Origin: Saccharothrix carnea | Lineage (GTDB): Bacteria; Actinomycetota; Actinomycetes; Mycobacteriales; Pseudonocardiaceae | Length of the DNA stretch: 64,000 bases | Assembly (NCBI RefSeq): GCF_003014735.1 | Contig: NZ_PYAX01000017.1 | Span: 1 to 64,000 of the forward strand | Reading direction: 5' to 3' | In this document: piece after piece, positions 8,665 to 44,677 of the stretch | How positions within the stretch are numbered: position 1 is the stretch's first letter | Layout of the letters: every line of letters begins with the position of its first letter | Notes under the pieces: model-generated | Told to the model about the DNA's origin: nothing | The model's input: only the letters and a program-made list of their open reading frames with translations | Database searches by the model: none | Translations under genes and position numbers: made by a program

Positions 8665-9438
8665 TTAGTGAGTCGTCACCGGGCGGACCCGCCCGAGGTG
8701 TGCGGAGATCGCCCCGAGCAGGGCGGTCGGGTCGTGCCGGAAGTAGAAGTGCCCGCCGTCGAACGCGCGGTGCTCGCGCAGCCCGCCCGCCGCGGTGAGG
8801 TCGCGCCACGCCTCGCCGCCGTCCGCGTCCACGTCGGGGTCGGCGTCGCCGCGGTAGACCACGATCGGCGTGCTCACGGGCGGCGGAGCGGTCGGCGCGT
8901 ACCGCTCGATGAGCCGGTAGTCGGCCCGGATCATCGGCAGCAGCAGTTCGCGCAGGTCGGGGTCGGCCAGCGCGGCGGCGTCCGCACCGGACACGCGGGT
9001 GATCTCGGTGACGAGCACGTCGTCGCCCCGGGCGTGCAGGTCGCGTGGCGTGCGGCGGTGCGGTGCGGCGAACCCGGAGGCCACCAGCAGCGCGGGCGGG
9101 CGGCCGCGGTCCTCGCACCGCCGGGTCACCTCGTAGGCGATGGCCGCGCCCATGCTGTGCCCGAACAGCACCACGGGCCGGTCGAACAGCGGCGCGAGCA
9201 CGTCGGTGAGCACGTCGGCCATCGCCGCCATGTCGTCCACCGGCGCGTCGACCAGGCGTTCCTCCCGGCCGGGGTACTGCACGACGCGCACCTCGACCGA
9301 CGCCGGCAGCCGGGCGCCCCAGTCGCGGTAGTAGCTCGCCGAACCGCCCGCGTGCGGCAGGCACACCAGGGTCAGCGCGGCGGACGGCCGGGGCGTGCGC
9401 GTGCGCAGCCAGCGGTCGGCGGTGGTCGTGGCCGCCAT
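8665..9438 (-). CDS. type II thioesterase (NRPS editing)
   Basis: A 257-residue alpha/beta hydrolase of the GrsT/SrfAD family. It shows the N-terminal CLPHAGGSASYYRDW signature, the catalytic Ser in GHSMGAAIAYE, and the His in FDGGHFYFRHD. Such enzymes clear misprimed or stalled acyl groups from NRPS carrier domains. ATG at 9438 is chosen because an AAGGAGG ribosome site sits just upstream; a GTG six bases earlier is less likely. It is encoded between the MbtH gene and the dioxygenase, within the NRPS operon. Confidence 0.93.
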   Translation of the reverse strand: MAATTTADRWLRTRTPRPSAALTLVCLPHAGGSASYYRDWGARLPASVEVRVVQYPGREERLVDAPVDDMAAMADVLTDVLAPLFDRPVVLFGHSMGAAIAYEVTRRCEDRGRPPALLVASGFAAPHRRTPRDLHARGDDVLVTEITRVSGADAAALADPDLRELLLPMIRADYRLIERYAPTAPPPVSTPIVVYRGDADPDVDADGGEAWRDLTAAGGLREHRAFDGGHFYFRHDPTALLGAISAHLGRVRPVTTH

Positions 9439-9475
9439 GCGCACCTCCTTCTGTCGTGCTGTCGTGGACGGGTGC

Positions 9476-9684: not shown

Positions 9685-9688
<4 letters not shown>
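9476..9688 (-). CDS. MbtH-like protein (adenylation-domain chaperone)
   Basis: A 70-residue protein with the full MbtH signature: NPFEDENGTYFVLVNDENQ, SLWP, and the three conserved Trp in SLWP, DGWRVVF and ANWTDMRP. MbtH-like proteins bind NRPS adenylation domains and are often required for their folding or activity. Its ATG overlaps the stop of the last NRPS gene by 4 bases, which couples its synthesis to that of the synthetases. It is the only MbtH seen here, so it presumably serves all three NRPSs. Confidence 0.97.
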
Positions 9689-13571
<3,883 letters not shown>

Positions 13572-13575
<4 letters not shown>

Positions 13576-22500: not shown

Positions 22501-24479
22501 AGGCCGGTGACGGTGAGGTCGAACGTGACGGGCGAGTGCAGGAACGCGCCGGACCGCACGGACGGGTAGGCGTCCACCGACCACTGGAGGTAGTTCACCG
22601 CCGCGCGGTGCTCGACCAGCGTGCCCTTGGGGCGGCCGGTCGAACCGGACGTGTAGATGACGTAGGCGGCGTGTTCCAGCCGCAACGGCGAGCGCCGGTC
22701 GGCGTCGGTCAGCGGGTCGGCGGAGAACGCGTGGTCATCGAGGTCGTCCAGGACCAGCTGGGCCACGTCGAGCGAGGCGAGGCCGGGCGCGAGGACCGCG
22801 TCGGTGACCAGCCGCACGGGCCGGGTCTCGCCGAGCATGTCGGCGAGCCGCTCGGTGGGCTGGTCGGGGTCGAGCGGCAGGTAGCCGGCGCCGGTCTTGA
22901 GCACCGCGAGCAGCGTCGTGACCAGGCGGGTGCCGCGCGGGAGCGCCACCGCGACCAGGGTCTCCGGCCCGGCGCCGTGCCCGACCAGCAGACGGGCCAG
23001 GCGGTTGGCGTCGGCGTGCAGCTCGGCGTAGGTGCGCTGCACGGTCCCGTGCACGACGGCGATCGCGTCCGGGGTGGCGTCCGCCTGCCGGTCGAGCAAC
23101 GCGGTCAGGTGCAGCGGCTCCACGGCGTGGTCGGTGGCGTTCCAGTCGACCAGGATGCGCTCGCGCTCGTCGGCGTCGAGCAGGTCGACGGCGTTGACGG
23201 CGCGGTCCGGGTCGGCGGCGATGGCGCGCAGCACCAGCCGCAGCCACTCCCCCATCCGCGCCACGGTGGCCGGGCCCAGCACGTCGGGCCGGTAGTCCAG
23301 CCGGAACGCCAACCGCTCGCCGGGCAGGCCGACCAGGCTGATCGTGTAGTGCGTGGCGTCACGGGCCTGGAAGTCGGTGATCCGCACGCCGCCGCCCAGC
23401 ACGGGCGCGGTGTCGACGTCGACCGGGTAGTTCTCGAACACCATCGTGGTGTCGAACAGCTCGCCGTGGCCGGTGCGCCGCTGCACGTCGGCCAGCCCGA
23501 CGTGCTGGTGCGCGATCAGCCCGGCCTGCCGGTCCTGCACGGCGGTCAGCAGCTCGCCCAGCGACTGCCCGGCGGCCCACGACACGCGCACCGGCAGCGT
23601 GTTGATGAACAGGCCCAGCATGGTCTCCACGCCCGGCAGCTCGGCGGGCCGACCGGACACCGTGCCGCCGAACACCACGTCGCGGCGGCCGAGGTAGCGG
23701 CCGAGCACCACGCCCCACGCGCCCTGGGCGAGGGTGTTCATCGTCCAGCCGCGGGCACGGGCGGTGCGGGTGAGCGCATCGGTCAGCTCGTCGTCCAGCT
23801 CGACCAGCACGCCCTCGGGCACCACGGAGGCGTTGTCGGCGGCCGACCCGACCAGCGTGGGCCCGTCCAGGCCCGCCAGCACCGAGTCGTAGGCGGTCAG
23901 CGCGGCGTCGGCGTCCTGCTTGGTCAGCCAGCCCAGGTAGTCGCGGTAGGGCGTGACGCGGGGCATCGCCGAGTCGTCGCCCGCGTGCTCGTAGAGGGTG
24001 AACAGCTCGTCCAGGAACACCGGCGTGGACCAGCCGTCCATCAGGATGTGGTGCATGGTCAGCAGCAGCCGGTGCACCTGGCCGGGCAGCACGACGAGCA
24101 CGAACCGCAGCAGCGGCGCGCGGGCCATGTCGAAGCGGCGGGCCCGTTCCTCGTCGACCAGCCCGGCGTAGTCCGCCTCCGGGTCGGCGGCACCGGTCAG
24201 GTCGAGTTCACGCCACGGCGCGCGCACCTCGCGGCGCACCACCTGCACGGGCCGGTCGAGGCCCTTGTGCCGGAAGCCGACGCGCAGGTTGGCGTGCCTG
24301 CGCAGCAACGCGTCGGCCGCCGCGCGCAGCGCGGGCACGTCCACCGGGCCGGTCAGCTCGGTGGCCATCTGCACGGTGTAGACGTCCAGGCCGTCCCGGT
24401 CGTACAGGGCGTGGAAGAGGAACCCCTCCTGCAACGACGACAGCGGCAGGACGTCCTCGACTGCGGACTTCTTGCTCAT
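13572..24479 (-). CDS. NRPS 2: C-A(Asn)-T-C-A-T-C-A(Val-like)-T-E
   Basis: A 3635-residue trimodular synthetase (modules 4-6). Approximate landmarks: C4 HHILMDG 143 (DCL type), A4 YTSGSTG 610, T4 LGGHSLL 995; C5 HHIAGDG 1180, A5 1666, T5 2040; C6 HHIAGDG 2230, A6 2706, T6 LGGDSIM 3085; E HHLVVDG 3278 with EGHGRH, RTVGWFT and FNYLGR motifs. Hand-read pockets: A4 D-L-T-K-V-G-E-V-G-K (Asn-like; Asp is the nearest alternative), A5 D-V-F-S-V-A-I-V-Y-K (unassigned; resembles some codes for cyclic residues), A6 D-A-Y-W-W-G-G-T-F-K (Val-like). T6 carries the LGGDS form that normally precedes an E domain, so residue 6 should be D. ATG at 24479 overlaps the NRPS 1 stop; the longer upstream frame is antisense noise. 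Confidence 0.95.
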
Positions 24480-27400
24480 CGGTCCAAGTCCTCGCTCTCG
24501 TCGTCTTCGTCGTCTTCCAGCAGGTCCAGCTCGTCCTGGCTGAGAGGGACCAGGTCCACGTCGGACGGGGTGAGGCCGCCCGCCGCGGTGCCCCGGACGT
24601 GCTCGACCAGCCCGTGCAGCGCCTGCCGCCACGCGGTGCCCAGGTCGGCGGCCTCGGCGTCGGCGAGCAGGTCGGCGGGCCAGGCGAGGGTGGCGGCCAG
24701 GCGCGGGCCGTCCGGTGTGTCCTCGGTGACGGCCGTGACCTCGATCGCGTGCACGAACGGCAGGTCGTCGTGCCCGACCGGGGCGGTGAAGCCCGGTGCG
24801 GGCAGCCAGAGCCGCTCGCCGCCGGGCGCGGCGGTGTCGACGCGGCCCAGGTAGTTGAACGCGATCTGCGGCGCGCCCAGGCCCGCGAGCTTGCCCGCCG
24901 TGTCGGCGTTGAGGTGGCGCAGCAGGCCGTAGCCGACGCCCTTCTCCGGCAGCTCGCGCAGCTGCTCCTTGACCCGCTTCAGCGCCGTGCCCGCGGCGGG
25001 TCCACCGGCCAGCAGCTCGGGCCAGCCGACCCGGCCGGGGTCCAGCCGCACCGGGTGCACGCTGGTGAACCAGCCGACCGTGCGGGACAGCTCCACGTCC
25101 GGTACGACGTCCTCCCGGCCGTGGCCCTCGACCTGCACCAGCACGGACGTCTCCGCGCCCCGGCCGCGACGTTCCCGCCACCGGCCCACGGCCAGCGCGA
25201 GCGCGGTCAGCAGCACGTCGTCCACGCCCGCGTGGAACGCGGCGGGCACCTCCGTGAGCAGCGGCGCGGTCTCCTCGACCGTGAGCGCGACCTCGGCGGT
25301 GCGCGCGGTGCCGACCGTGTCGCGGGCCGGGTCGAGCGGGCGTGCGCCGAGCAGCGGGTCGGGGCCGTCGAGGACGGCGGTCCAGTACGGCAGCTGGTCG
25401 GCGCGGGCCGGGTCGTGCGCGGCGTCGTGCAGCAGGTGCGACCAGCGGCGCCACGACGTCCACACCGGTTCCAGCGAGGGTTCGCGGCCGGCGGCGAGGG
25501 CGTGCCACGCCTGGGCGAGGTCGGGCAGCAGGATCCGCCACGACACGCCGTCCACGGCCAGGTGGTGCACGACCAGCAGCAGGTCGCCGGGGTGCACTGG
25601 GCCCGCGTCGAACCACACCGCCTGCACGAGCCGCCCGCGGGCCGGATCGAGGCGTCGCCACGCGGTGTCGGCCTCGGCGCGGACGGCGGCGGCACGCGCG
25701 GTGTCGTCCAGCCCGGTCACGTCCACGCGGCGGGTCACGTCTTCCGCCTGCACCGTGCCGGGGTCGGCGATCTCGTAGTACCACTCGCCTTCGTCGTCAC
25801 GGGCGAGGCGGGCGCGCAGGGCGTCGTGGTGGCGCAGCACCGCGTCCAGCGCGCCCAGCAGCCGGTCCCGGCCCAGTCCGGCCGGCACCGCGACGAGCTG
25901 CGCCTGGTTGAAGCCGTCGAGCGTGCCGCCGCTGTCGAGGAACCAGCGCACGACCGGCGTGAGCACGGCCGGGCCGCTGCCCGTGGTGTCGGGCACGAGC
26001 CGGGCGTCGGCCGGTTCCACCGCCACCAGGGCGAGTTCGGCCGCGGTCTTGCGCTCGAACACGTCACGCGGGGTGAACACCAGGCCCGCCCGGCGGGCGC
26101 GGCTGACGAGCTGGATCGAGCCGATGCTGTCGCCGCCGAGGTCGAAGAAGCTGTCGTCCACGCCCACGTCGGGCAGGCCGAGCACGTCCGCGAACACCCC
26201 GCACAGCACCTCTTCGCGTGCGGTGCGCGTGCCCGCGGCGTGCGGCGTCGGCTCGGGAGCGGCGGGTGCGGGCAGCACGGCGTGGTCGAGCTTGCCGTTG
26301 CGGCTCAACGGCAACTCGTCCAGCAGCACCACCGCGGCCGGCACCAGGTAGTCGGGCAGCTCGGCGCGCAGCGCGGACCTCAGGGCCGCGGTGTCCAGCT
26401 CGGCACCGGCCGTCGCGGTGACGTAGGCGACGAGCCGGGGCGTGCCGCCGTGGTCGGGCCGCAGCAGCACGGCGCAGGTGTCCACGCCGTCGTGGCGGCG
26501 CAGCGCCGCTTCGACCTCGCCGGGCTCGACCCGGAAGCCGCGCACCTTGACCTGGCCGTCGACCCGGCCCAGGAACTCCACGTGCCCGTCCGGCCGGCGG
26601 CGCGCGAGGTCACCCGTCCGGTACATCCGGGCTCCCCCGCCGGCGAACGGGTCGGCGACGAAGCGGTGCGAGGTGAGCGCGGGCCGGTCGAGGTAGCCGC
26701 GGGCGACGTTCGGGCCGGACAGGTACAGCTCGCCGGGCACGCCCACCGGCACGGGCCGCAGCCACGCGTCCAGCACGTGCGCCCGGGTGTTGAGCACCGG
26801 CGTGCCGATGACCGGCGCCGGGTGGTCGGCCAGGTCGGCGATCATCGAGTCCACGGTGGCCTCGGTCGGGCCGTAGAGGTTGAGCGCCACCAGCCCCGGC
26901 GTGCCGCGCAACGCCCCCCACAGGTGGGCGGGCACGGCCTCGCCGCCGAGCAGCACGACGGACGGGAACCGCTCGTCACCGTCCAGCAGCCCGTGCGCCA
27001 CCAAGTGGTCCGCATAGGACGGTGTGGTCTCGATGACGTCGATCCGCTCCCGGCGCAGGTGTGCCACCAGGGCCTCCGGGTCGCGGCGGACGTCGTCACC
27101 GATCACGTGCAGCTCGTGGCCCGCGAGCAGCCACAGCACCGGGTCCCAGGACGCGTCGAACGCCACCGGCGCGGTCAGCGCGGACCTGAGCCGGTCACGG
27201 CCCAGGCGGCGCGCGACCGGCGTGAAGACGTGCTCTTGATGGTGGCGCAGGAGGTTCGCGAGGGAACCGTGCTCCACCACGACGCCCTTGGGACGGCCGG
27301 TCGAGCCGGAGGTGTAGATGACGTACGCGGCGTCGCGCGCGGTCAGCGGTCGGGTGCGGTCGGCGTCGGTGGGTGCCGTGTCCGGGGCGTCCGGTGCGGT

Positions 27401-30400
27401 GTGGGCGTCGACCGAGCCCTCGATGACCAGGGCCGGGCGGGCGTCGGCGAGGGTGGCGCGGCGCCGTTCCGCCGGGTGGTCGGGGTCCAGCGGCAGGTAG
27501 ACCGCGCCCGCCTTGAGCACCGCGAGCAGCGCCACGACCGTGTCGACCGACCGGGGCAGGACCACCGCCACCACGTCACCGACCGCCGTGCCGCGGCGCA
27601 GCAGCGAGTGCGCGAGCCGGTTGGCGCGCCGCTCCACCTCGGCCGCGGTGAGCCGGACGTCCCCGCAGACGAGGGCCTGCCGGTCGCCACCCGCGCCCCG
27701 CTCGAACGTGGACAGCACGGTCTGGTCCGGTACCGGGCCGAGCGGTCCGACCGCGCCACGGGCCAGGTGTCCGGCCTCGCCGGGGGCGAGCAGGTCCAGG
27801 TCGCCGAGGCGCCGCGTCGGCTCGGCCGTGACCTGGTCCAGCACCCGGGCGAACCAGGACGCCACGCGGTGGGCGGTGTCGGCGTCGAACAGGTCCCGGC
27901 TGTACTCCAGCTCGCCGTGCAGGCCTGCGGGCTCGCCGTGCTCGTGCCGTTCGGCGAGCGTGAACGACAGGTCGAACTTGGCCGGACCGGCGGGCAGGTC
28001 GACCACCTCGGGCGTGACGCCCGGCAGGTCCAGGTCCGGGTCGGCGTTGTTCTGCACCGTCAACAGCACCTGGAACAGCGGGTGCCTGGCCAGCGAGCGC
28101 TGGGGCGCCAGCTGCTCGACCAGCCGGTCGAACGGCACGTCCTGGTGCGCGAACGCGGCCAGGTCGACCTCGCGGACCCGGTCGAGCAGGTCGGCGAACG
28201 CGGGCTCCCCCGAGGTGTCCACCCGCAGCACGAGCGTGTTGACGAAGAACCCGACCAGGTCGTCCAGCGCCTCGTCCCGCCGACCGGCCACCGGCGTGCC
28301 GATCGGGATGTCGGTGCCCGCGCCCAACCGCGTCAGCAGCGCGGACAGCGCGGCGTGCAGCACCATGAACGGGCTGGCGCCGTGCGCGGCGGCCAGGTGT
28401 GCCACCCGGGCGTGCACGTCGGCGTCCAGGTGCAGCGGCACGGAACCGCCGTCGTTGCGCGGCCGACTCGGACGTGCCCGGTCGGTGGGCAGGTCGAGCG
28501 TCTCGGGCAGGTCGGCCAGCAGCGCCCGCCAGTGGTCGAGCTGGGCGCGCAGCGGGCTGTGCTCGTCCTCCTCGGAGCCGAGCACGTCGTGCTGCCACAG
28601 CGTGTAGTCCGCGTACTGCACGGGCAGCGGCGTGAACTCCGGTGCCACGCCCGCGTGCCGGGCGCGGTAGGCGACGCCGAGGTCGCGCAGCAGCGGTGCC
28701 AGGGACCATCCGTCCGCGGCCACGTGGTGCAGCAGCAGGAGCAGCACGTGGTGGTCGTCCGCGAGCCGGTACAGCCGGACCGCCACGGGCAGGTCGTCGG
28801 CCAGCGCGAACTTGTGCCGCACCGCGTCGGCCAGGTCGGTGGTCAGCGCGTCCTCGGTGGTGTCGATCCGCCTCGTCGCGGCGCTGAGCAGCGCGGCGGC
28901 CGCGGCCGGGTCCAGCACCGATTGCCGCGGCGAGCCGTCGACCTCGGGGAACACCGTCCGCAGCACCTCGTGCCGGGCGACCACGTCGGCCACGGCCGCG
29001 AGCAGCGCCGCGCCGTCCAACGCACCCGTGAGCCGCACGGCCAGCGGCACCGAGTACAGGCCACCGGCCTCGTCCAGCCGGTCGAGGAACCACAGGCGTT
29101 GCTGCGCGGCGGACAACGGCACCACGTCGGGCCGGGCGCGCGGGGTGACGCGGGCGCGGGCGGGCGCGGCGTCGTGCAGGACGCGGGCCAGCCCGGCGGG
29201 CGTCGGGTGCTCGAACACCGCGCGGATCGGCGCCTCCACCGCCAGCACGGCCCGGACCCGGCTGATCAGCCGCATGGCGAGCAGCGAGTGACCGCCCAGG
29301 TCGAAGAACCCGTCGTCCACCCCGACCTCGGTCACGCCGAGCACGTCGGCGAACAACCCGCACAGCGTCTCCTCCACGCCGTGCGCCGCGCGGGACGCGG
29401 ACGTGACGGCCGCGGCGGGCGCGGGCAGGGCCTGCCGGTCGACCTTGCCGTTGCCGTTGAGCGGCAACGCCGCCAGCTCCACCACGACCGACGGCACCAT
29501 GTACGCGGGCAACGCCCCGCCGACGTGCGCGCGCAACGCCGCCTGGTCCGCGGTCGCGCCTTCGTCGGGCACGACGTAGGCCACCAGACGACGTTCTCCG
29601 TGGTGGTCGGCGCGGACCGCGACGACGGCGTGCGCCACGTCGGGGTGCCGCGCCAGCACGGCTTCGACCTCGCCGGGCTCGATCCGGAACCCGCGCAGCT
29701 TCACCTGGTCGTCGGCGCGCCCGTGGAACGCCAGCAGCCCGTCCGGCAGGCGGCGCACCAGGTCGCCGGTGCGGTACATGCGGTCACCGGGCGGCCCGTA
29801 CGGGTTGGGCACGAACCGCTCCGCGGTCAGCCCGGCCCGCCCGAGGTAGCCGCGCGCGAGACCGGTGCCCGCCACGTACAGCTCGCCGACCGCGCCGGGC
29901 GGGGTGAGCCCGAGGTCGGTGTCGAGGACGTGCACGCGCGTGTTGTCCATCGGCAGGCCGATCGGCACGGCCCGCGGGTCGGTCTCGCCGGGCCGCAGCA
30001 CGAACCGCGTGGCGAACGTCGTGGTCTCGGTGGGGCCGTAGCCGTCGACCACGGTCAGGTCCGGGCAGTGCGCGCGGACCCGGGCCACCGCGGCGGCGGG
30101 CACGACGTCACCGCCGGTCCACACCTCCCGCACGCCCGCCAGGCTGGTCGGCGCTTCCTCGGCGACCAGCCGGAACAGCCCGGCGGTGAGCCACAGGGCG
30201 GTGACGCGGTGCTCGGCGACGACCCGGCCGAGGGTGGCGATGTCCAGCACGCCGGGCGGTGCGACGACGACCGTGCCGCCGGACAGCAGCGGCGCCCACA
30301 GCTCGTAGGTGGCGGCGTCGAAGGCGTGCGAGGAGTGCAGCAGCACGCGGGCGTGCGCGGGCGTGGTGAACAGCCGGTCGGTGGCCAGCTCCACGACGTT

Positions 30401-33400
30401 CGCGTGCGTGACGGCGACGCCCTTGGGCACGCCCGTCGAGCCGGACGTGTGCATGACGTAGGCGAGCTGGTCGGGGTGCGAACGCCGGTTCAGCGCGCCC
30501 GCGGCCGGCGGTCGTTCGCCGGTGTGCACGACGTGCACCGGCGCGGTCAGGCCTTCGGGCGGCGTCGGCCGGTCGGTGACCAGGACGGGCGCGCCGAGGT
30601 CGGCGAGCACGAAGTCCACGCGCTCCACCGGGTACGACTCGTGCAGCGGCACGTAGTAGCCGCCCGCCTTGAGCACCGCGAGGATCATCACCACCAGCGA
30701 CGGCGACCGGTCCACCAGCAGCGCGACGGGCGTCTCGGCGTCCACCCCGAGGTCGGCGAGCCGGTTCGCCCACCGGTCGGCCTCGGCGTCGAGCTGCCCG
30801 TAGGTGAAGGTGCCCGCGTCGGACACCACGGCGAGCGCGCCGGGCGTGGCCGCGGCCTGTGCCTCGAACCGGGCGGCCAGGGACGTGGCGCCGACGCGGC
30901 GGGCGGTGTCGTTCCAGGTGACGAGCTCGGCGTGCCGCTCCTCGGCGGTGAGCAGGTCGAGCCGGGCCAGGGACGTCGCGGGATCGGCGGCGACGGCGGC
31001 GAGCAGCGTGCCCAGCCGGGTCACCAGGTGCCGCGCGGTCGCCTCGTCGAACAGGTCCAGCGCGTACTCCAGCGCACCGGCGACACCCGTCACCGCGCCG
31101 CTGTCGTCACGGGTCTCGTACAGGTCGAACCACAGGTCGAACTTGGCGACCGCGGTGCGCAGGTCGGCCACGGCGACGTCCAGGCCGGGCAGTTCGACGT
31201 CCGGGTCCGGGGTGTTCTGCAGCACCAGCATCACCTGGAACAGCGGGTGCCGGGCCAGCGAACGACGCGGGTTGAGCACCTCCACCAGCCGCTCGAACGG
31301 CACGTCCTGGTGCGCCAGCGCCGCCAGGTCCGTCTGCCGCACCCGCTCCAGCAGCTCCGTGAACGACGGATTGCCTGACGTGTCCGTGCGCAGCACCAGC
31401 GTATTGACGAAGAACCCGACCAGGTCGTCCAACGCCTCGTCGGAGCGCCCCGCCACCGCCGTGCCCAACGGGATGTCCGTCCCGGCGCCCAACCGCGTCA
31501 ACAACGCCGCCACTGCCGCGTGCAGCACCATGAACACGCTGGTGCGCGTCTCCCGCGCGATGTCGGCCAGCCGCGCGTACAGCTCGCCGTCCACGGTCAG
31601 CGGCACCCGTGCGCCCCGGTGCGACGGCACGGCCGGGCGCGGGCGGTCGGTCGGCAGCTCCAGCACCTCGGGCAGGTCGGCGAGCCGGTCGCGCCAGAAC
31701 CGGACCTGGCGGCTGGGCGCGCCGTCCGGGTCGTCCTCGTCGCCGAGCGCTTCCCGTTGCCACAGCGCGTAATCCGCGTACTGGAGCGGCAACGGCGTGA
31801 ACTCCGGTGCTCCTCCCGCGTGCCGGGCGCGGTAGGCGGCGCCGAGGTCGCGCAGCAGCGGTGCCAGCGACCAGCCGTCGGCGGCGATGTGGTGCACGAC
31901 CAGCAGCAGCACGTGTTCGTCGGCGCCGGTCTCGAACAGCCACAGCCGCCACGGCAGGCCGTTGGCGAGGTCGAAGCGGTGGCCGGTGGCGGCGGTCATC
32001 TCCTCCGCCGGGTCCGCGACGGCCGCCGTCTCCACGTGGTCGGGCAGCAGGCGCAGCGCGTCGGCCACGTCGAGGACCTCCTGCACGGGCTCGCCGCCGA
32101 CCTCGGGGTAACGGGTGCGCAGCGGCTCGTGGCGGGTGACGACGTCACCGAGGGCGGCCAGCAGCGCCGTGCGGTCGAGCGGGCCGGTCAGGCTCAGCGG
32201 CAGCGGCACGTTGTAGGTGCCGCCGGTCTCGTCCAGGCCGTGCAGGAACCACAGCCGGCGCTGGGCGGACGACAGCGGCACGAGGTCGGGGCGCGGCCGT
32301 GCGGTGGGCCGGGACCGGGCGACGGCGGCGCCGTCCACGACCAGCGCGAGCCCGGCGGGCGTCGGGTGGTCGAACACCTCCCGCAGCGTCAGCTCCACGC
32401 CGAGCGCGGCCCGCACCTTGCTGATGAGCCGGGTGGCCATCAGCGAGTGCCCGCCGAGGTCGAAGAACCCCTCGTCCACCCCGACCCGCTCGACGCCGAG
32501 CACGTCGGCGAACACCGCGACCATCAGCTCTTCCAGCGGGGTGCGCGGCGCCCGGCCGGCGGCGCCCGAGTCGGGTGCGGGCAGCGCGTGCCGGTCGAGC
32601 TTGCCGTTGGGCGTCAACGGCAGCGCGTCCAGCGCGACGAACGCCGAGGGCACCATGTACCCGGGCAACCGGGCCTCGGCCGACGCCCGCAGCGCGGTGA
32701 GGTCGACGTCGGCCGGCGTCACGTACGCGACGAGCCGCTTGTCACCGGGCCGGTCCTCGCGCACGACGACCGCGAGCGCGCCGACACCGCCGTGCCCGCC
32801 GAGCACCGCCTCGACCTCGCCCAGCTCGATGCGGTGGCCGCGCACCTTCACCTGGTGGTCGCGTCGTTCCAGGAACACCAGCGACCCGTCGGCGCGGCGC
32901 ACCACGTAGTCACCGGTGCGGTACATGCGACGGCCGGGACGCGGCGTGAACGGGTCGGCCACGAACACCACGCCCGTGCGGCCCGGGTCGCCGAGGTACC
33001 CGCGCCCCACACCTTCACCGCCCACGTACAGCTCACCGGGCGTGCCGACCGGGACCGGGCGCAGGCGGTCGTCCAGCACGTACAGGCGGGTGTTGCGCAG
33101 CGCGCTGCCGATCGGGACGCCGTCGATGACGTCGTCGGGCGTGGTGATGAACGCGTGGGTGACGTCGTCGGCGCACTCGGTGGGGCCGTAGGCGTTCATC
33201 AGCGGGATGCCGGGGAACGCGTCGAGCCAGCGGGTGCACAGGTCGGCGGGCAGCGCCTCACCCGTGGCGACGAGCAGCCGCAACGAGGCCAACCCGGGCC
33301 GCCCACCGTCCGCGTCCCACAGGTCCAGGGCCGCGCGGAGCAACGACGGCACGACCTCCAACACGGCCACTCGTTCCGCGTCGGTCCGGTCGAACAGGCC

Positions 33401-35425
33401 ACGCGGGTCGGCGGCGAGTTCCCGTGCGACGACGCGTGCCGTGCCGCCCACCATGAGCGGCGCGAGCATCTGCCAGATGGAGATGTCGAACGTCAGCGGC
33501 GCGTTCTGCACCACCGTGTCCACTTCGGACAGTCGACAGTCCTCCACCTTGGTCAACAGGTGGTTCACCATGCCGCGGTGGGTGACCATGGCGCCCTTGG
33601 GCTTCCCGGTCGACCCGGAGGTGAACAGCACGTACGCGAGGTCGTCGCCCGCACCGACCGGCTCGGGCCACTCGTCGGAGGTCTCGTCCCCGACCAGCAG
33701 CAGGTCCGTGCCCGCGGCCAAGTCGGTGGCGAAGGTGGCGACGGCGGGCGAGGCGAGGACGAGCCGTGCCCCGCTGTCGGCCAGCAGCGCCCGGCCGCGG
33801 GCGACCGGCGAGGCGGAGTCCACCGGGACGTAGGCCGCGCCCGCGCCGAACACCGCCAGCACCGACACCACGAAGTCGCGGCCCGGTGCGGTCGGCAGGG
33901 CGACCACGTCACCGCGCTCGACACCCGCGGCCCACAACCGGCGGGTCAGCGCGGCGGCACGCCCGGCCAGTCCGGCATAGGTGGTCGGTCCCTCGTCGTC
34001 CACCAACGCCACCGCGTCCGGCGTGCGCCGGGCGTGCGACTGGACCCGTAGCACCACCCCGTCCGCGTCGTCCAACGGCGCATCGGTGCGGTTCCACCCG
34101 ACCAGCGCCTGGTCCCGCTCGGCCGCGTCGAGCAAGTCGAACGACGCCAGCGGCGCCTCCGGGTCGGCCAGCAACCGTTCGAGCAGCTTCAGCAGCCGGT
34201 CCAGGTGACCGGCCACCTCGGCCTCGCCGTACAGGAACTCGTTGCCGTCCAGGTCGATCCGCACGGGCTTGCCGTCGGACCGGTCGTAGGCGGTGATCTC
34301 CACGTCGTCGATCACGCCGTTGGACAGGTTGTGCGCCGTCACCGGGTGCCCGCCGAAGGTGACGTTGTAGTCGAACGGCATGATGTTGACCACGACGTTG
34401 GCCAACTGGCCCGCACCCCGCACCAACCCCAGGTCCCGCAGCACGTCCTCCTGCCGGTACCGCTGGTGCTTGAGCGTGTTCCGGGCCTCCACGGTCGTGC
34501 GCCGCAGCACGTCGACGAACGTCGCCGCCGGGTCGAGGTCCACGAACAGCGCGAGGATGTTGCTGACCATCCCCGGCGTGTCGCGCAGCAGCTTGCTCTT
34601 GCGCGCCATCACCGGGAACCCGACCGGCGTGGTGCGCGCACCCGTCACCAGGTGCAGGTACACGGCGGTGGCGGCGGTCAGCGCCATCGGCCAGGTGGAC
34701 GCGTGCGCCCGGGTCAGCTCCTTCATCCGCTCCATCAGCGCCGGGTCGACCAGCGAGGTGGCGCGGGCCGGGCGGGCGCTGGCGGGCGCGGTGCCCGACG
34801 TGAGGCCGACCGGCGCGGGCCGGTCGGCCAGGCGGGTCCGCCAGTGCTCCTGGTCGCGGCGGTAGGCGTCGGAGGCGCGGTAGGCCGCGTCGTCGTCCAG
34901 GTACTGCTGGAGGGTGGCGAACGCGCCGGCGGGCACCTCCTCACCCGCCACCAGGGCCGAGTACACGGTGGCGAGGCGGTCGGTGAAGATGCGCCCGCTC
35001 ACGCCATCGGCGATGACGTGGTGGTTGCGCTGGTAGTACAGGAACCGGTCGGGCGCGACCTCGAACAGCGCGTCCACCGACAGCGGACCGTTCTCCAGGT
35101 CCATCGGCCGGTACAGGTCGTCGTCCATCCACGCCACCGCGTCACCCACCGGGTCGGCGCGGTCGCTGTGGTCGAAGAAGTGCAGGTGCGGGTCGGGAGC
35201 GAGGAACTGCCACACGCCGTCGGCGTCCTCGGTGAACCGGACCTGGACGGTCTCGGCCTCCAGCACGGTGCGGCGCAGCGCCTCCTCGAACAGCGCCACG
35301 TCCACCGCGCCGTGGATCTCCAGGTACTCCGACATGACGAACACGTTGTCGGGGTTCAACCGCTGGCCGTACCAGATCCCCAGCTGTCCCGGGGAGAGCG
35401 GCCACCGCCGCCTGTCCTCGCTCAT
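24476..35425 (-). CDS. NRPS 1: starter C-A-T-C-A(Val-like)-T-C-A(basic)-T-E
   Basis: A 3649-residue trimodular synthetase (modules 1-3). It opens with a condensation domain ([20 protein letters not shown] near 138) although no peptidyl donor precedes it, so it is a starter C expected to acylate residue 1. Landmarks: A1 FTSGSTG 602, T1 988; C2 HHIAADG 1178, A2 1662, T2 2042; C3 HHVAADG 2235, A3 2705, T3 LGGDSIG 3095; E HHLAVDG 3288 with VEGHGRE and RTVGWFT. Hand-read pockets: A1 D-I-W-E-V-T-A-D-D-K (unassigned), A2 D-A-Y-W-W-G-G-T-F-K (Val-like), A3 D-A-D-E-L-G-L-V-D-K (acidic pocket, probably Orn/Lys/Arg-like). C2 and C3 have LCL-type starts (SAQRRLWFL). The acidic C-terminal tail ([15 protein letters not shown]) may be a docking segment to NRPS 2. 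It lies 27 bases after the ketosynthase. Confidence 0.95.
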
Positions 35426-35452: not shown

Positions 35453-36703
35453 CTAGCCCTGCCACCGGCGCAGCACGACCACGGCGTTGTGGCCGCCGAA
35501 GCCGAACGAGTTGCTCATGACCACGTCCACGTCGTGCGCCTGCGCCTCGTGGGCGACGAAGTTGACGGCGGGGTCGATCGGCTTGTGGCAGTTGACGGTC
35601 GGCGGCACGAGCCCGCGGTTGATCACCATCGCGCCGACGATCGCCTCCACCGCACCGGCCGCGCCGATCATGTGGCCGGTCATGGACTTGGTGGAGCTGA
35701 CCGGGATCCGCTCGGCGTGCGCACCGAACACCGCGCGGATCGAGTCCAGTTCGGACTGGTCGTTGAACACGGTGCTGGTGCCGTGGGCGTTGACGTAGCC
35801 GACGTCCTCGGGCGCGAGGCAGGCGTCCTCCAGCGCGCCGCGCATGGCGGCCCGCGCGCCCCGGCCCTCGGGGTGCGGCGCGGTCCAGTGGTGCGCGTCG
35901 GAGGTGGCCGCGTAGCCGGCGACCTCGGCGAGGATCGTCGCACCCCGCGCCAACGCGTGCTCCGCGGACTCCAGCACCACGATCCCGGACCCGGACGCCA
36001 TCACGAACCCGTCGCGGTCCTCGTCGAACGGACGGCACGCCTCGGTCGGCGCGTCGGTCCGGGTGGACAGCGCCTTGGCGTTGCCGCTGCCCGCCATGTC
36101 CACCCGGGTCAGGATGTTCTCCGCGCCGCCCGCGACCACCGCGTCGACCACGCCGTAGCGCACCCAGCGGGCCGCCTCGCCGATCGCGTCGGTGCCGGAC
36201 GCGCACGCGCTGCTCAACGCCCGCGTCGGCCCGGTGACGCCGAACGCCAGGCTGATCTCGCCCGCCGCGCTGTCGATGGCACCGGTCACGGGCGCGAACG
36301 GGCTGACCGCGCGCGGCCCCTTGGCGCCCAGCGTCACCACGTGCTCGCCGAGGGACTGCATCGGCCCGTAGCCGCTGCCGATGAGCGCGCCCACCCGGTG
36401 CGCGTTGTCCTCGGTGATCTCCAGCTTCGCCGTGCCGACCGCCTCGGACGCGGCGGCGAACGCGTACTGCGCGTACGGGTCCATGCGCCGGACCTGCTTG
36501 TGGTTCAGGTACTTCTTCGGCTCGAACCCCTTGACCTCGCCCGCCAGGTCGGTGGGCAGGTCGGAGGCGTCGATGACGGTCACGTTGCCGATCCCGCTGC
36601 GCCCCGCGACCAGCGCGTCCCACGTCTCGTCGGCGGTGAGGCCGACCGGGGACACCACGCCCCAGCCGGTGATGACGACTCGCCTGCCGTGTCGTTCAGC
36701 CAT
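35453..36703 (-). CDS. beta-ketoacyl-ACP synthase II (FabF-like)
   Basis: A 416-residue condensing enzyme with the complete KS catalytic triad: nucleophile Cys in SSACASGTDAIG, His in NAHGTSTVFND and His in KSMTGHMIGA, plus the terminal SFGFGGHNA motif. Length and N-terminus (RRVVITGWGVVSPVG) are those of a discrete FabF, not a polyketide-synthase chain-length factor or modular KS. It would elongate an acyl-ACP with malonyl-ACP. It is followed by NRPS 1, whose starter C domain needs an acyl donor, so it most likely builds that acyl chain. No acyltransferase, FabH or ACP is encoded nearby; these would have to come from primary metabolism. Confidence 0.92.
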   Translation of the reverse strand: MAERHGRRVVITGWGVVSPVGLTADETWDALVAGRSGIGNVTVIDASDLPTDLAGEVKGFEPKKYLNHKQVRRMDPYAQYAFAAASEAVGTAKLEITEDNAHRVGALIGSGYGPMQSLGEHVVTLGAKGPRAVSPFAPVTGAIDSAAGEISLAFGVTGPTRALSSACASGTDAIGEAARWVRYGVVDAVVAGGAENILTRVDMAGSGNAKALSTRTDAPTEACRPFDEDRDGFVMASGSGIVVLESAEHALARGATILAEVAGYAATSDAHHWTAPHPEGRGARAAMRGALEDACLAPEDVGYVNAHGTSTVFNDQSELDSIRAVFGAHAERIPVSSTKSMTGHMIGAAGAVEAIVGAMVINRGLVPPTVNCHKPIDPAVNFVAHEAQAHDVDVVMSNSFGFGGHNAVVVLRRWQG

Positions 36704-36729: not shown

Positions 36730-38457
36730 TCAGTCGGCGACCGGGAAGCTGCCGCCGAGTTCGTGGTCGGCGAACAGCGCGTCTTCCAGGCGGGTGGGAA
36801 CGTTGAGGACGACCACCTGGCCGTCCCGCGAGCGCTGCCAGGCGTCGGCGACGTCCGCGCGCAGCGACTCCTTGGTCACGGTCACCTGGTGCACGCCGCG
36901 CCACCGCGGCGCCTGGGCCGTGACGGCGTCCGGGTCCACGAACGCCGTGCCCGCCAGGTCCTTGTTGTGCGGGCCGAGCTGGGAGTGCAACCAGCCGTAG
37001 CCGCCGTTGCGCAGCACCACGTAGACCAGCCCGCCGCCGAGCGCGGCGGCCGTGGGCAGGTCGGCGTCGAACAGGCCGAACGCGCCGTCGCCGACGAACG
37101 CCACCACCGGCCGGTCGCCCGCCGCGGCCTTCACGCCGACCGCCGCCGCCGCGCCGAAACCGAGGCTGGTCTGCTCGGACGGCACCACCGAGCCCGCGCC
37201 GTGCGCGCACTCGAACCGGGGGAAGCTGTAGGACCACATGTCCTGCAACCCGTTCTCCTGCACCAGGACGCGGTCGCCCGGCAGCTCGGCGTCGAGCGCG
37301 GCCAGCACCTCCACGACGTGCAGCTCGGGCTTGGCCGCGAGGGCGGCCAGCTCGCGGCGGTGGTCGGCGCGCAACCCGTGGTGCACCTCGTCCACGCGCT
37401 TGGACCACTCCACCGGCGCGCTGTCCACGGCCTGCTCCAGCCACACCGCGCACACGTCCGCGCCGTCGCCGAGCACGACCGGTCCGGTGTACTGGGTGGC
37501 CACGCCCGCCGCGTCCACGTTGACCTGCAGCACGGGCACGGTCGTGCCGAGCGCGTCGGGCCAGCCGTAGGTGGCGGTCTCCTCCAGCCTGCTGCCGAGC
37601 ACCACCACGCAGTCGGTGTCGGCCCACAACGCCTTGGCCCGCTCCGGCGCGTACAGCCCGGCGAGCCCGATGAACCGCACCGACGACTCGTCCACCGCAC
37701 CGCGTCCGCTGGCCGTGCAGGACAGGGCCGCGCCGACGCGTTCGGCGAACCGCTCCACGACGCCGTCCGCGTTGCGGTGCCGCATCCCGCCGCCGACCAG
37801 CACGATCGGCCGCTGGGCGTTGCGCAGCACCTGCGACGCCGCCGAGTCGCCCGCCACCGGGACCGTCGTCGGGCGTTCGACGGGTGGCGCGGGCGGCGGC
37901 ACGGGCACGTCCACCTTCAGCAGGTGGTCGGGCACCTCCACGTACACCGGACCGGTCGCGCCGGACGTGGCCACGAGGACGGCCCGGCGCACGGCGGGAG
38001 CCAGCCGGTCGGGGTGCTCGACCCGGGTCGAGGACTTCACCAGCGGCGCGAGGACGGCCTGCTGGTCCAGTTCCTGGAACGCGCCGCTGCCCCGCCGTTC
38101 CGCCGCCGTGCCGCCGGACAGCAGCAGCACGGGGGCACCGGACGACGCCGCCTCCAGCAGGCCGGTCGCGGTGTTGGTCACCGCCGGGCCCTTGCCGACC
38201 AGCGCGACGCCGAGCGCGCCGGAGCGCAGCGCGTAACCGGTGGCCATGAACACGGCGTTGCGCTGGTCGCGGCACACGACCAGCCGGACACCGGCGGCGT
38301 GCAGCGCGCCGAGCGCGTCCAGGTCGTCGTCGGGCAGGCCGAACACGACTTCCACGCCCGCCTCGGCGAGCAGCCGGGCCACGGCGTGCCAGGCACCCCG
38401 GACGTGGTGGCCCGGGGAACGCGGCACGGACAGCGGTTCCAGGTCGATCACACCCAT
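36730..38457 (-). CDS. thiamine-diphosphate-dependent enzyme, acetolactate-synthase-like, atypical active site
   Basis: A 575-residue protein with the three-domain layout of the acetolactate synthase/benzoylformate decarboxylase family: N-terminal PYR domain, central domain (ending near residue 330), and C-terminal PP domain with the ThDP/Mg motif GDGAFGLFDADL...LRNGGYGW. The place where relatives carry the ThDP-activating Glu (usual form RHEQNAAFMA) reads RDQRNAVFMA, so Glu seems replaced by Gln. That suggests unusual chemistry or loss of ordinary ThDP activation. It could decarboxylate a 2-oxo acid or join an aldehyde with a 2-oxo acid (acyloin-type reaction); no function can be fixed. ATG at 38457 has GAGGGGGAG just upstream. 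It lies 14 bases after the ligase-ALDH fusion gene. Confidence 0.85.
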   Translation of the reverse strand: MGVIDLEPLSVPRSPGHHVRGAWHAVARLLAEAGVEVVFGLPDDDLDALGALHAAGVRLVVCRDQRNAVFMATGYALRSGALGVALVGKGPAVTNTATGLLEAASSGAPVLLLSGGTAAERRGSGAFQELDQQAVLAPLVKSSTRVEHPDRLAPAVRRAVLVATSGATGPVYVEVPDHLLKVDVPVPPPAPPVERPTTVPVAGDSAASQVLRNAQRPIVLVGGGMRHRNADGVVERFAERVGAALSCTASGRGAVDESSVRFIGLAGLYAPERAKALWADTDCVVVLGSRLEETATYGWPDALGTTVPVLQVNVDAAGVATQYTGPVVLGDGADVCAVWLEQAVDSAPVEWSKRVDEVHHGLRADHRRELAALAAKPELHVVEVLAALDAELPGDRVLVQENGLQDMWSYSFPRFECAHGAGSVVPSEQTSLGFGAAAAVGVKAAAGDRPVVAFVGDGAFGLFDADLPTAAALGGGLVYVVLRNGGYGWLHSQLGPHNKDLAGTAFVDPDAVTAQAPRWRGVHQVTVTKESLRADVADAWQRSRDGQVVVLNVPTRLEDALFADHELGGSFPVAD

Positions 38458-38471
38458 CTCCCCCTCGCCCG

Positions 38472-41162
38472 TCAGGCCGTGCGGCCGGTGGCGTCGGACG
38501 CGGTCAGGCGGTCGGGCCCGAGGTGGTCCGCGACGGCCTTCGAGATCAGCAGCGGCTCGGCGCGGCGCGTGCGGCCCAGCGCGGCGTAGTTGGCGCGGAT
38601 GCCCGTGCCGCCGAACGGCGCGTTGCCGTCCTCGATGTCGATCACGGTCTCGTTGATGCTGACCGTGTGCCGGTGGCGCAGCAGCTCGACGGTGTCGGGC
38701 AGGTCGCCGTAGACCGTGGCGGCCATGGCCCGTTCCTGGAAGTACTGGTGGTCCAGCATCGGGTGCAGCCAGTCGGTCGAGGTGAACGGCACCACGTTGA
38801 AGATCGGCGCGAACAGCTCGGGCGGGGTGATCTTGGTGTCGGCGGGCCGGATCAGCACGGTGGGGCTGAGGTGGTCGTCCACGAAGTTGACCTCGCCGCC
38901 CGCGGCCAGGTGCTCGCGGCCGGAGCGCAGGTAGTCCAGCGACGCGTCGAACGCGTCGAGGTAGAACATGTGGCTGTAGTCGGCGTTCGGGTCGTCGAAG
39001 CGGCCGTAGCGCAGGTTGTCCACGCGGCGGCACAGCAGGTTGCAGAACTGGGCGCTGATCGATGTGTGGACGAACACCACGTCCGGGCCGAAGCAGTCCT
39101 GCCCGGAGTTGAGCATCCGCACCCGCAGCAAGCCGTCCACGGCCTTCGGGATGTCGGCGTCCGCGCCGACCACGAACGGGTTCACGCCCTGGCCGAAGTA
39201 GAGGAACAGCTGGTCGCGGCGCAGCCCGGCGCGGATCTTCTCGGCGTTCTTGAACGTGCCGGTGAACACCAGCACGTCCGAGCGCGCGCCCTCGCCCTCC
39301 ATGAACTCCCGCTGGCCGCTGTCGTCCATGACGATCGGCAGGTGGTGCACGCCGGACAGCAGCTCGTGCAGCTTGAGCAGCTGGTCGGAGATGCGCCGCG
39401 ACGGCCGGAACACGACCCGTTCGCTGTAGAGGCTGGGGATCGCCAGGTACAGCACGTAGCTGTAGAGCGGGATGTTCGACGGCATCAGCACGCCGATCTG
39501 ACCGATCGCGGGCGGCCGGTACCGGGCGATCTCGGCGGCGGCACCCTCCAGCGCGGCGATCGACGCGTCGATCTCGCCGTACGCGGTCTTGTAGTTCGTC
39601 ACCTGCGTGAGCAGGGACATCACCTCGGCGCGGCGTTCGCGCAGCAGTTGGGCGAGGTCGGTGAGCCGGGCCAGCCGGTCCGGGAACGGGATGGCCGACG
39701 GGTCCGCGTCACCGTGCGCCCTGGGGAAAACGCCCTTGACGCCTTCGAGCGCCACGGTCGAGGCGGCGATGTCGCGCAGCGCCCGGAGGTCGACCTTGCC
39801 GTTGCCGTTGAGGGGCAGTTCCTTGAGCACGACCACGCGGTTGGGCTGCTCGTGCGCGGCGACGAACCGCGACACCGTGCGCTTCCAGTGCGCCACGGGC
39901 TGCTCGGTCGGGTCGGTGATCACGAACACGAGCTGGGTGCCGCGCTGCTCGTCCTCGACCGGGATCACGCGCACCGGCGCGCCGCACGCACCGGCCTTCT
40001 CCGCGATGGCGTCCGGGTAGAGCGTGTGGCCGAAGCGGTGCACGGCGGACTTGCGGCCGAGCACGCGCAGCTGCCCGGCGGGCGTCAGGAAACCGATGTC
40101 GCGGGTGTGGAACTCCTGCCGCTCGACCTCGCGGACCCGTCCGCCCGGTTCGAGCAGGCCCACCATGATGTCGGGGGTGCGGACCACGACCTCGCCGACC
40201 TCGCCCGGCGGCACCGGGTTGCCCACCGGGTCGCGCACCTCCACGACGACGCCGTCCAACGGCGTGCCGCAGTAGGTCGGGTCCTCGATCGAGGACAGGG
40301 CGATGTTGCCCGCCTCGCTGCTGCCGTAGCCGTCCAGGAGCGTGGCGCCGAAGCGCTTCTCGAAGCGGGTGCGCAGCTCGTCGCGCAACGGTTCGCCGCC
40401 GACGCACCACATGCGCACCGAACCCAGGTCGCGGGTGTCGCGGCGGGCGATGACGCGCAGCATCGTGTCGTAGGTGGCGGGCACGGCGTCCACGACCGTC
40501 ACGCGCTGCCGGGCGATCACGTCCAACGCCTGGTCCACGCGCCTGCTGGGTGCGATGACGAGCGTGGCGCGGGCGTCCCACCAGAGCATCAGCATGGACA
40601 GGCCGTACTGGTGGGTGAACGGCAGCAGCGGCAGCAGCACGTCGGACCCGACGTAGCCCATGCGCCGCTGGGTGCGCTCGACGTTGCGCCGCACCGACGC
40701 GCCGGAGCGCACGATGCCCTTGGGCTTGCCGGAGCTGCCCGAACTCCACACCACGAGCGCGTCACGCCGCTGCGCCCACTGGGCGAAGGTCAGCTCGGGG
40801 ACGTCGGCCACGGGCACGTCGTGCGCGGTCTTCACCAGGGCGTGCAGGTCGAGCAGGCCGGCCGCGACCCGGTCGAACGCGGGATCGGCCTGGTCGGCGT
40901 CGGTGACGAACCAGCGGGCGCCGGAGTCCACGACGTGCTCGGCGGCCTGCGCCGGCGGCAGCCCGGGATCGACCAGGCCGACCGAGACGCCCAGCTCCAT
41001 CAGCGCGAACAGCACCACCACGAAGTCGTCGGAATTGCGCGCCGACAGCACGACGCGATCGCCGTCGTCGACCCCGCGTTCACGCAGCACGCCGATCAGC
41101 GCGTGGCAGCGTTCGGCGACGTGTGCCAGGGGTGTTTCCCCGCCGTGTTCGTTGACAAGCAT
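38472..41162 (-). CDS. fusion: AMP-forming acyl ligase + aldehyde dehydrogenase-like reductase
   Basis: An 896-residue two-domain protein and first gene of the NRPS operon. Residues 1 to about 510 form an ANL-family ligase (SSGSSGKPKGI, DGYGSSEAGN, TRDIGFLTPAG, GRKSAVHRFG and the catalytic Lys in NGNGKVD). Residues about 525-896 form an ALDH-fold domain with the nucleophilic Cys in NSGQDCFGPD, the second conserved Glu region PELFAPIFNV and the terminal NAPFGGTG motif. The usual ELGG general-base Glu is replaced by LYFGQG, a change seen in enzymes that work on acyl thioesters rather than oxidise aldehydes. I infer it activates a fatty acid and may reduce it to an aldehyde, or load the starter C domain. 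ATG at 41162 has a GAGGG ribosome site upstream. No close relative of this exact fusion comes to mind. Confidence 0.8.
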   Translation of the reverse strand: MLVNEHGGETPLAHVAERCHALIGVLRERGVDDGDRVVLSARNSDDFVVVLFALMELGVSVGLVDPGLPPAQAAEHVVDSGARWFVTDADQADPAFDRVAAGLLDLHALVKTAHDVPVADVPELTFAQWAQRRDALVVWSSGSSGKPKGIVRSGASVRRNVERTQRRMGYVGSDVLLPLLPFTHQYGLSMLMLWWDARATLVIAPSRRVDQALDVIARQRVTVVDAVPATYDTMLRVIARRDTRDLGSVRMWCVGGEPLRDELRTRFEKRFGATLLDGYGSSEAGNIALSSIEDPTYCGTPLDGVVVEVRDPVGNPVPPGEVGEVVVRTPDIMVGLLEPGGRVREVERQEFHTRDIGFLTPAGQLRVLGRKSAVHRFGHTLYPDAIAEKAGACGAPVRVIPVEDEQRGTQLVFVITDPTEQPVAHWKRTVSRFVAAHEQPNRVVVLKELPLNGNGKVDLRALRDIAASTVALEGVKGVFPRAHGDADPSAIPFPDRLARLTDLAQLLRERRAEVMSLLTQVTNYKTAYGEIDASIAALEGAAAEIARYRPPAIGQIGVLMPSNIPLYSYVLYLAIPSLYSERVVFRPSRRISDQLLKLHELLSGVHHLPIVMDDSGQREFMEGEGARSDVLVFTGTFKNAEKIRAGLRRDQLFLYFGQGVNPFVVGADADIPKAVDGLLRVRMLNSGQDCFGPDVVFVHTSISAQFCNLLCRRVDNLRYGRFDDPNADYSHMFYLDAFDASLDYLRSGREHLAAGGEVNFVDDHLSPTVLIRPADTKITPPELFAPIFNVVPFTSTDWLHPMLDHQYFQERAMAATVYGDLPDTVELLRHRHTVSINETVIDIEDGNAPFGGTGIRANYAALGRTRRAEPLLISKAVADHLGPDRLTASDATGRTA

Positions 41163-44467: not shown

Positions 44468-44531
44468 GGTTCACATACCGAAATCACCGCTGGGCCGAAC
44501 GAGTGAACTAGCGAAGCGTTTCCAAGCCCGA

Positions 44532-44545
44532 TCGAAAGCTTTCGA
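44532..44545. promoter_or_regulatory. LacI-type operator palindrome upstream of GH115
   Basis: Perfect 14-bp palindrome TCGAAAGCTTTCGA, about 130 bases before the GH115 start and 65 bases after the LacI-family gene. A related GAAGCGTTTC element lies just upstream near 44514. Shape and position fit the binding site of the adjacent regulator. Confidence 0.6.
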
Positions 44546-44677
44546 CCTGCGGAATCGGTCCCCGAGCCCGCGCCTGCGGGCTTTGCGCAACCGTTGCCCT
44601 CCCCCGCTCCGCGCTCCTAGCTTCGGTTCACCGCCACCGTCCCCCGCCCGCTCCCTCATCACCTTCGAGGTCCGCTG

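Follow-up and report, generated by a model that had tools for sequence, protein, structure and literature searches.

A fused acyl-activating and aldehyde-dehydrogenase-like protein as the probable tail primer of a lipopeptide cluster in Saccharothrix carnea

The first 64,000 nucleotides of contig NZ_PYAX01000017.1 (assembly GCF_003014735.1) of the actinomycete Saccharothrix carnea, referred to here as the window, contain a nonribosomal peptide synthetase (NRPS) operon headed by a gene for a fusion protein. In this protein an acyl-activating domain of the ANL type and a domain related to aldehyde dehydrogenases (ALDHs) form a single chain. From its sequence context, the fusion most likely initiates the synthesis of a dedicated fatty chain that goes into a seven-module lipopeptide, and it very probably acts as the primer of the tail. 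The best joint explanation, to which we give about an even chance, is that the protein unites in one actinobacterial chain the counterparts of FusF and FusE of the fusaricidin operon and carries out the chemistry proposed below. A sequence-only reading of this DNA had suggested that such a catalyst could define a new lipoinitiation step. The fusion itself is new, as are the spread of its cassette, the near-constant thiamine diphosphate (ThDP) dependent partner, the acylating-type motif of the ALDH and the Gln that replaces the canonical Glu of the ThDP enzyme. The genetic unit is already known from the fusaricidin operon, where fusF and fusE are two genes and the product is lost when either is deleted (PMC6829208).

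The fusion is encoded by one open frame on the minus strand, with its ATG at 41162 and its stop ending at 38472, and a purine-rich stretch resembling a ribosome site lies ahead of the ATG. Both domains are found by Pfam in the one 896-residue frame, as had been claimed: residues 14-335 match AMP-binding (PF00501, E 8.3e-58) and residues 490-853 match Aldedh (PF00171, E 5.3e-26), while AMP-binding_C at residues 397-456 scores 20.7 bits, below the cut-off of 24.5. A protein 95% identical to the fusion is present in a second genome of the same genus. The gene is the first in a tight minus-strand run, with gaps of 14, 26 and 27 bases leading to the genes of a ThDP enzyme, a ketosynthase (KS) and the first NRPS. 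The genes ahead of the NRPS are:

38472..41162, minus strand: ANL-ALDH fusion protein (FusF-FusE-like), 896 aa; ANL part about residues 1-480, ALDH-like part about 481-896; key residues K456, D225, N563, C690 and E782
36730..38457, minus strand: ThDP-dependent enzyme (FusD-like), Gln65 at the expected catalytic-Glu site of the pyrimidine domain
35453..36703, minus strand: FabF-type KS (FusC-like), Cys167, His307, Lys339 and His344

The closest parallel is the fusaricidin operon of Paenibacillus polymyxa and its relatives. The paper PMC6829208 gives the order fusG (enoyl-acyl carrier protein (ACP) reductase), fusF (acyl-coenzyme A (CoA) ligase), fusE (aldehyde dehydrogenase), fusD (acetolactate-synthase-like), fusC (3-oxoacyl-ACP synthase), fusB (dehydratase) and fusA (NRPS). 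It also reports that any single deletion from fusB to fusG removed antifungal activity and the fusaricidin peaks in liquid chromatography (HPLC), that fusTE is dispensable, and that the tail is 15-guanidino-3-hydroxypentadecanoic acid. The Paenibacillus loci examined here have the order FabI-ANL-ALDH-ThDP-KS-FabA-NRPS. In P. ottowii MS2379 (locus L101) genes of 1461, 1224 and 1701 bases have the lengths of the published fusF, fusE and fusD, while the frames taken for its fusC and fusG use other start codons and each exceed the published length by 9 bases. The same contig carries an NRPS frame of 7911 residues, the published fusA being 23,730 bp. Another P. ottowii strain produces fusaricidins (PMC11381237).

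Like the fusaricidin cassette, the window has an ANL domain, an ALDH, a ThDP enzyme and a FabF-type KS in the same order, ahead of an NRPS with a starter condensation domain. Identities between the window and L101 are 36% for F, 41% for E, 45% for D and 50% for C; both clusters have a FabI-type reductase, and the two ALDH parts fall in one clade. The clusters also differ. fusF and fusE are separate genes, whereas the window has one fused gene. The FabA-type FusB is replaced by a MaoC-type dehydratase and a FabG-like gene; no FabA-type dehydratase lies between the window KS and NRPS 1, which begins 27 bases past the KS, and the MaoC-type gene is elsewhere in the cluster. The fusaricidin NRPS has six modules, while the three NRPS genes of the window have seven adenylation (A) domains in total. 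A literature search made mostly without subscription papers turned up neither a description of how FusD, FusE or FusF work chemically nor one of a fused protein, and the literature searched offered no mechanism by which the tail of fusaricidin, or spergualin, is started. The remaining genes of the cluster, with condensation and thiolation domains abbreviated C and T, are:

24476..35425, minus strand: NRPS 1, starter C-A-T-C-A-T-C-A-T and a last condensation-fold domain, epimerase-like
13572..24479, minus strand: NRPS 2, three C-A-T modules and a last epimerase-like domain; likely start overlaps the NRPS 1 stop (ATGA)
9685..13575, minus strand: NRPS 3, C-A-T-thioesterase; likely start overlaps the NRPS 2 stop
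8665..9444, minus strand: free-standing thioesterase
6845..7669, minus strand: FabI-type enoyl-ACP reductase (FusG-like), 37% identical to the L101 product
1107..1808, plus strand: FabG-like short-chain reductase
715..1110, plus strand: MaoC-type dehydratase, near the contig edge where the window begins

The last domain of NRPS 1 is epimerase-like by motif and pairs in the tree with the last such domain of NRPS 2. The KS, FabG, MaoC and FabI genes provide, by their predicted functions, all the steps needed to make a fatty chain. The complete genome G290 has a near-identical cluster, in which a second dehydratase gene (FAS1_DH-type) lies beyond the point where the window begins. Among the C domains, the first one of the window NRPS falls together with its counterpart in FusA (SH-aLRT 99, in a quick tree that carries a long-branch warning), and we infer that it accepts a lipid. 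The suggested link to lipoinitiation thus holds up. It is the fus-like gene set, the reductase and dehydratase genes and the FusA-like first C domain together that make a dedicated fatty chain the most likely role.

Relatives of the fusion are widespread. Within the order, 19 of 397 genomes have a match at E 1e-60 or better, and nine places, the window included, cover both domains; one of them (L015) has a TGA inside the match. A scan of the genomes of 84,980 species with two ALDH peptide patterns, NSGQDC[FL][GC] and [ED][DN]GNxPFGG, gave 400 hits, of which 156 are related to the ALDH part. The best 80 of these were retained (L049-L128) and are called the named loci; there are 98 loci overall, a few being the same place fetched twice (L034 and L060, for example), and some genomes, such as Crossiella, have several copies. 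About 10 kb was fetched on each side of a locus, less at contig ends, and neighbouring genes were labelled from one scanned member per group. In 49 of the 80 named loci (57 of all 98) a single uninterrupted frame encodes both ANL and ALDH. This recurrence in many assemblies rules out a sequencing join, an objection that the sequence-only reading had raised against itself. In a further 24 named loci the two parts adjoin but do not form one open frame, which brings the total with a fused or adjoining ANL to 73. In each of the 22 loci from Bacillota (Paenibacillus, Brevibacillus, Fictibacillus, Hazenella, Paludifilum and Bacillus) ANL and ALDH are encoded by separate genes, and the remaining two of the 24 (L056 and L057) resemble fusions that a stop or frame break has interrupted.

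The ALDH is nearly always accompanied by the ThDP enzyme. Its gene lies in the fetched stretch of 71 of the 80 named loci and a KS gene above 200 bits in that of 67; ANL, ThDP and KS accompany the ALDH in 55. The nine loci without a ThDP gene in the stretch come from seven genomes, each of which has a cassette-type ThDP gene (50-53% identical) elsewhere. Four of these genes are, by coordinates, within about 1 kb of the stretch end and one (L056) is far off; in two Crossiella genomes the gene is beside a third ALDH copy. This near-constancy suggests that the ALDH does not act alone. The earlier idea of a self-contained catalyst is therefore probably wrong, as a ThDP gene is found in or beyond the stretch at every named locus and a dedicated KS is usual.

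The ALDH part retains its nucleophile and lacks its general base. Catalytic Cys690 lies in NSGQDCFGPD, and the fusion reads L-Y-F-GQGVN in the alignment where ordinary ALDHs have F-E-L-GGKN. The ordinary general-base Glu aligns with F656 in pairwise alignments or with Y655 in the multiple alignment. None of the 91 aligned ALDH rows, which leave out L031, has Glu in either column; column 655 contains F, Y, L, G, S or A and column 656 contains F, Y or L. Cys690, N563 (Asn169-like), E782 (Glu399-like) and F784 are each present in 91/91 rows, and we take the last three to be thiohemiacetal and nicotinamide binding positions in ALDHs. The conservation of Cys690 and its neighbours is partly built in, since the relatives were found with the peptide patterns; the Glu columns lie outside them. 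Both earlier observations, the Cys that was kept and the Glu of ELGG that was lost, are thus confirmed. The motif FGQGVNP aligns with the acylating E. coli enzymes EutE (AGAGNPP) and AdhE (VGAGNTP) and not with ELGG. In these CoA-acylating ALDHs, too, the general-base Glu is replaced by a G-x-G-containing motif while the catalytic Cys is kept, and the thioester-type reading of the Glu-less ALDH is judged right. The Asn169-like residue, F784 and Gln688 of the fusion, however, match ordinary ALDHs and not EutE or AdhE.

A tree was built from 37 of the 91 fetched ALDHs with five E. coli and eight own-genome ALDHs as references. The ALDH parts, including those of the window and P. ottowii, form one 38-row clade with 100/100 support, apart from the ordinary dehydrogenases tested, as the thioester-type reading had required. 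PaaZ alone adjoins the clade, weakly (80/66) and with a long-branch warning. As for the cofactor, Glu at Lys192+3 is a mark of NAD-preferring ALDHs. It is missing in 91/91 ALDH rows and kept in FeaB, AldA and five of six own-genome ALDHs, while E. coli GabD, annotated as NADP-dependent, and PaaZ, which is NADP-dependent, also lack it. These comparisons point weakly to the use of NADP(H) by the fusion.

The partner enzymes have features of their own. The window ThDP enzyme, whose closest solved structure is BbmA, has Asp64-Gln65 where aligned BbmA has His-Glu, and so do all 79 rows counted after one short row was dropped. The canonical Glu is the cofactor-activating residue of ThDP enzymes, and glyoxylate carboligase is a known exception. 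From the alignments, the Asp-Gln change appears as unusual as the loss of the ALDH Glu. A search for literature on BbmA/CsmA gave nothing usable. The KS retains its active site (C167 in 80/80 rows; H307, K339 and H344 in 78/80). In the ANL part 91 of 94 rows retain the adenylation Lys K456 and all 94 have D225; the ANL and KS rows include some neighbourhood or stand-alone relatives outside any cassette. D225 lies, presumably and by eye, level with specificity position 278 of NRPS A domains, and as a hint this would suit a cationic substrate.

How might the fusion prime a fatty chain? The ANL domain would adenylate a small carboxylic acid, and the acyl group would move from AMP to Cys690 of the ALDH domain. 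An acyl-Cys690 intermediate is probable, and the acyl enzyme would escape hydrolysis because the general-base Glu is gone. NADPH would then reduce acyl-Cys690 to the aldehyde, which the ThDP partner would take as acceptor before the KS acts. This reductive direction, feeding the ThDP enzyme, falls somewhat short of an even chance; it is favoured over oxidation of a ThDP-made aldehyde. The fusion would in this way prime a dedicated type II fatty-acid synthase (FabF-type KS, FabG, MaoC and FabI), whose product would probably be a 3-hydroxy fatty acyl chain that is polar or cationic at its distal end, and the starter C domain would join the chain to the seven-module peptide. If it grows by C2 units, a C15 tail must start from a primer with an odd number of carbons. 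Arginine that has lost CO2 yields C4, hence a C5 (lysine-type) or C3 primer, or C4 plus one carbon, is needed. As an example, the ThDP enzyme could add one carbon to a C4 arginine-derived acid to give a C5 primer for the C15 fusaricidin tail.

A guanidino or cationic tail for the product of the window strain is unproven. GntA-type genes lie beside the cassette in seven loci (L052, L053, L054, L074, L075 at 14535-15356, L076 and L112; 213-248 bits against a cut-off of 145), which makes guanidino tails plausible for some actinobacterial relatives. The GntA model describes the haem-dependent N-hydroxylase of guanitoxin biosynthesis. Other GntA-type matches were found outside the fetched stretch in the L068 genome (219 bits), by position off the contig of the cassette in the L051 genome (192 bits), and below the cut-off in the L050 genome (63 bits). 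A cluster-borne PF02274 amidinotransferase was rejected as the guanidine source; 9 of 12 cassette genomes have matches, none of them beside the cassette as judged by contig number and position.

Several points weigh against the proposed scheme. As regards a cationic tail, no GntA-type gene was found in the window genome, in G290 or in the genomes of L049 and L055, and the PF02274 matches of the window genome and G290 are not near the cluster, PF02274 being the sole amidinotransferase family searched. The use of NADP(H) is made less certain by EutE and AdhE, which likewise lack the Lys192+3 Glu, and by a basic residue at +3 to +5 in just 48 of 91 ALDH rows. The fusion clade is separate from EutE and AdhE in the tree, so the acylating-type motif may be convergent. 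No ANL adjoins the ALDH in 7 of the 80 named loci, although in one of them, from S. rimosus, a close ANL lies about 15 kb away. A ThDP enzyme that joins two pieces would leave an oxygen function that is absent from the saturated fusaricidin tail, which speaks against plain acyloin formation. Finally, no measured activity for any cassette enzyme was found in the literature searched.

The strongest rival, judged less likely than the reductive route, reverses the direction of the ALDH. Here the ThDP enzyme would produce an aldehyde by decarboxylating a 2-oxo acid derived from an amino acid, the ALDH without its Glu would oxidise this aldehyde to acyl-Cys690 and pass the acyl group to a carrier protein or the KS as CoA-acylating ALDHs do, and the ANL domain would re-activate free acid that is lost. 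The acylating-type motif and the near-constant pairing of ALDH and ThDP enzyme fit this route, and some bacteria convert arginine to 4-guanidinobutyrate by a ThDP decarboxylase and an ALDH. The window ThDP protein also scores 186 bits against PRK07524, a model for 5-guanidino-2-oxopentanoate decarboxylase, which is far below the cut-off of 500 and behind several other models. However, this route would assign only a minor task to the fused ANL, even though nearly all rows keep its catalytic Lys, the canonical ThDP Glu is Gln throughout, and the C4 unit left from arginine does not suit the odd primer of a 15-carbon tail.

A relay without redox chemistry is improbable. It would pass the acyl group from acyl-AMP on the ANL domain to Cys690 and then to the KS or an ACP, with a vestigial nucleotide site, which is the logic of LuxE. 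The physical fusion of the two domains and the loss of the general base with retention of Cys in every row agree with it, but N563, E782 and F784 in 91/91 rows make a working nucleotide site likely, and the ThDP partner is left unexplained. The reductive scheme itself resembles LuxE/LuxC in its sequence of acyl-AMP, acyl-Cys, NADPH and aldehyde; the partners of the fusion are a ThDP enzyme and a KS and not luciferase. Membership of the LuxC or LuxE families was rejected, as neither model is among the three Pfam families listed for the fusion at E 0.001. Carboxylic acid reductases also combine adenylation and reduction in one chain, but by Pfam the fusion has no phosphopantetheine carrier or thioester-reductase domain and has an ALDH-type domain instead.

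It is far less probable that the ANL merely loads a finished fatty acid onto the NRPS, like the fatty-acyl-AMP ligases of other lipopeptides, with an unrelated job for the ALDH. The gene does head an NRPS operon with a starter C domain. Many ANL-ALDH loci, however, have no NRPS match in the fetched stretch, the ThDP partner is in the genome of 80/80 named loci, and fusE and fusD are each essential for fusaricidin (PMC6829208). An ordinary NAD-dependent ALDH fused to a CoA ligase, or an assembly artefact, is almost certainly wrong: the best Protein Data Bank (PDB) matches of the ALDH part are ordinary dehydrogenases, but the catalytic Glu of ELGG is missing in every row, the clade is its own, and the in-frame fusion recurs.

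Other genes were noted beside the cluster and its relatives. In the window, a pair of genes for a LacI-type regulator and then a glycoside hydrolase of family 115 (43196-47725, plus strand) is probably unrelated to the cluster, and an NPP1-type (necrosis-inducing-like) protein is encoded at 54246-55040 on the plus strand (PF05630, E 1.2e-58). Near the lipopeptide cluster of the sister genome (L140-L141; G290:C1:1268000-1289200), YcaO, lantibiotic-dehydratase-like and nitroreductase-like genes form a likely cluster for a ribosomally synthesized and post-translationally modified peptide. On linear plasmids of Streptomyces goshikiensis and zaomyceticus (L029, L030) a divergent split cassette lies beside tyrosine aminomutase, ATP-grasp and NikS-like genes; no product name was found for the Streptomyces clusters with a split cassette, these plasmids included. 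Sixteen of the 80 named loci (L058-L066, L099, L110, L117, L118, L124, L125 and L127) have a gene for an R2-like di-iron protein close to the cassette. There is another at L033:6917-7927, whose top NCBIfam match is R2-like ligand-binding oxidase (75.8 bits, below cut-off). In several loci between L079 and L116 (for example L079-L084, L087-L089, L092, L094, L097, L102, L105, L109, L111 and L116) genes for a C-domain-like protein, a BioF/serine-palmitoyltransferase-like enzyme and ACPs come after the cassette, and this orphan cluster type may make amino-ketone lipids.

A broader proposal is offered tentatively and is more doubtful than the role as tail primer. The cassette could be an unrecognised, widespread priming route for type II fatty-acid and polyketide synthases. 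The ANL and the Glu-less ALDH would give an enzyme-bound acyl group or aldehyde from a small, often amino- or guanidino-bearing acid, the Gln-type ThDP enzyme would alter the carbon count, the FabF-type KS would then extend the chain, and the fused protein would be the substrate-channelling form.

The fusion ties an unnamed actinomycete cluster to an antifungal lipopeptide with essential tail genes, for whose tail chemistry no explanation was found. The pairing of an ALDH that lacks its general base with a ThDP enzyme that lacks its canonical Glu is a testable question of enzymology, for which the fusion is a convenient single protein. As the same cassette occurs in actinobacterial and Bacillota clusters of several types, one solution would predict the tail primers in many orphan clusters.

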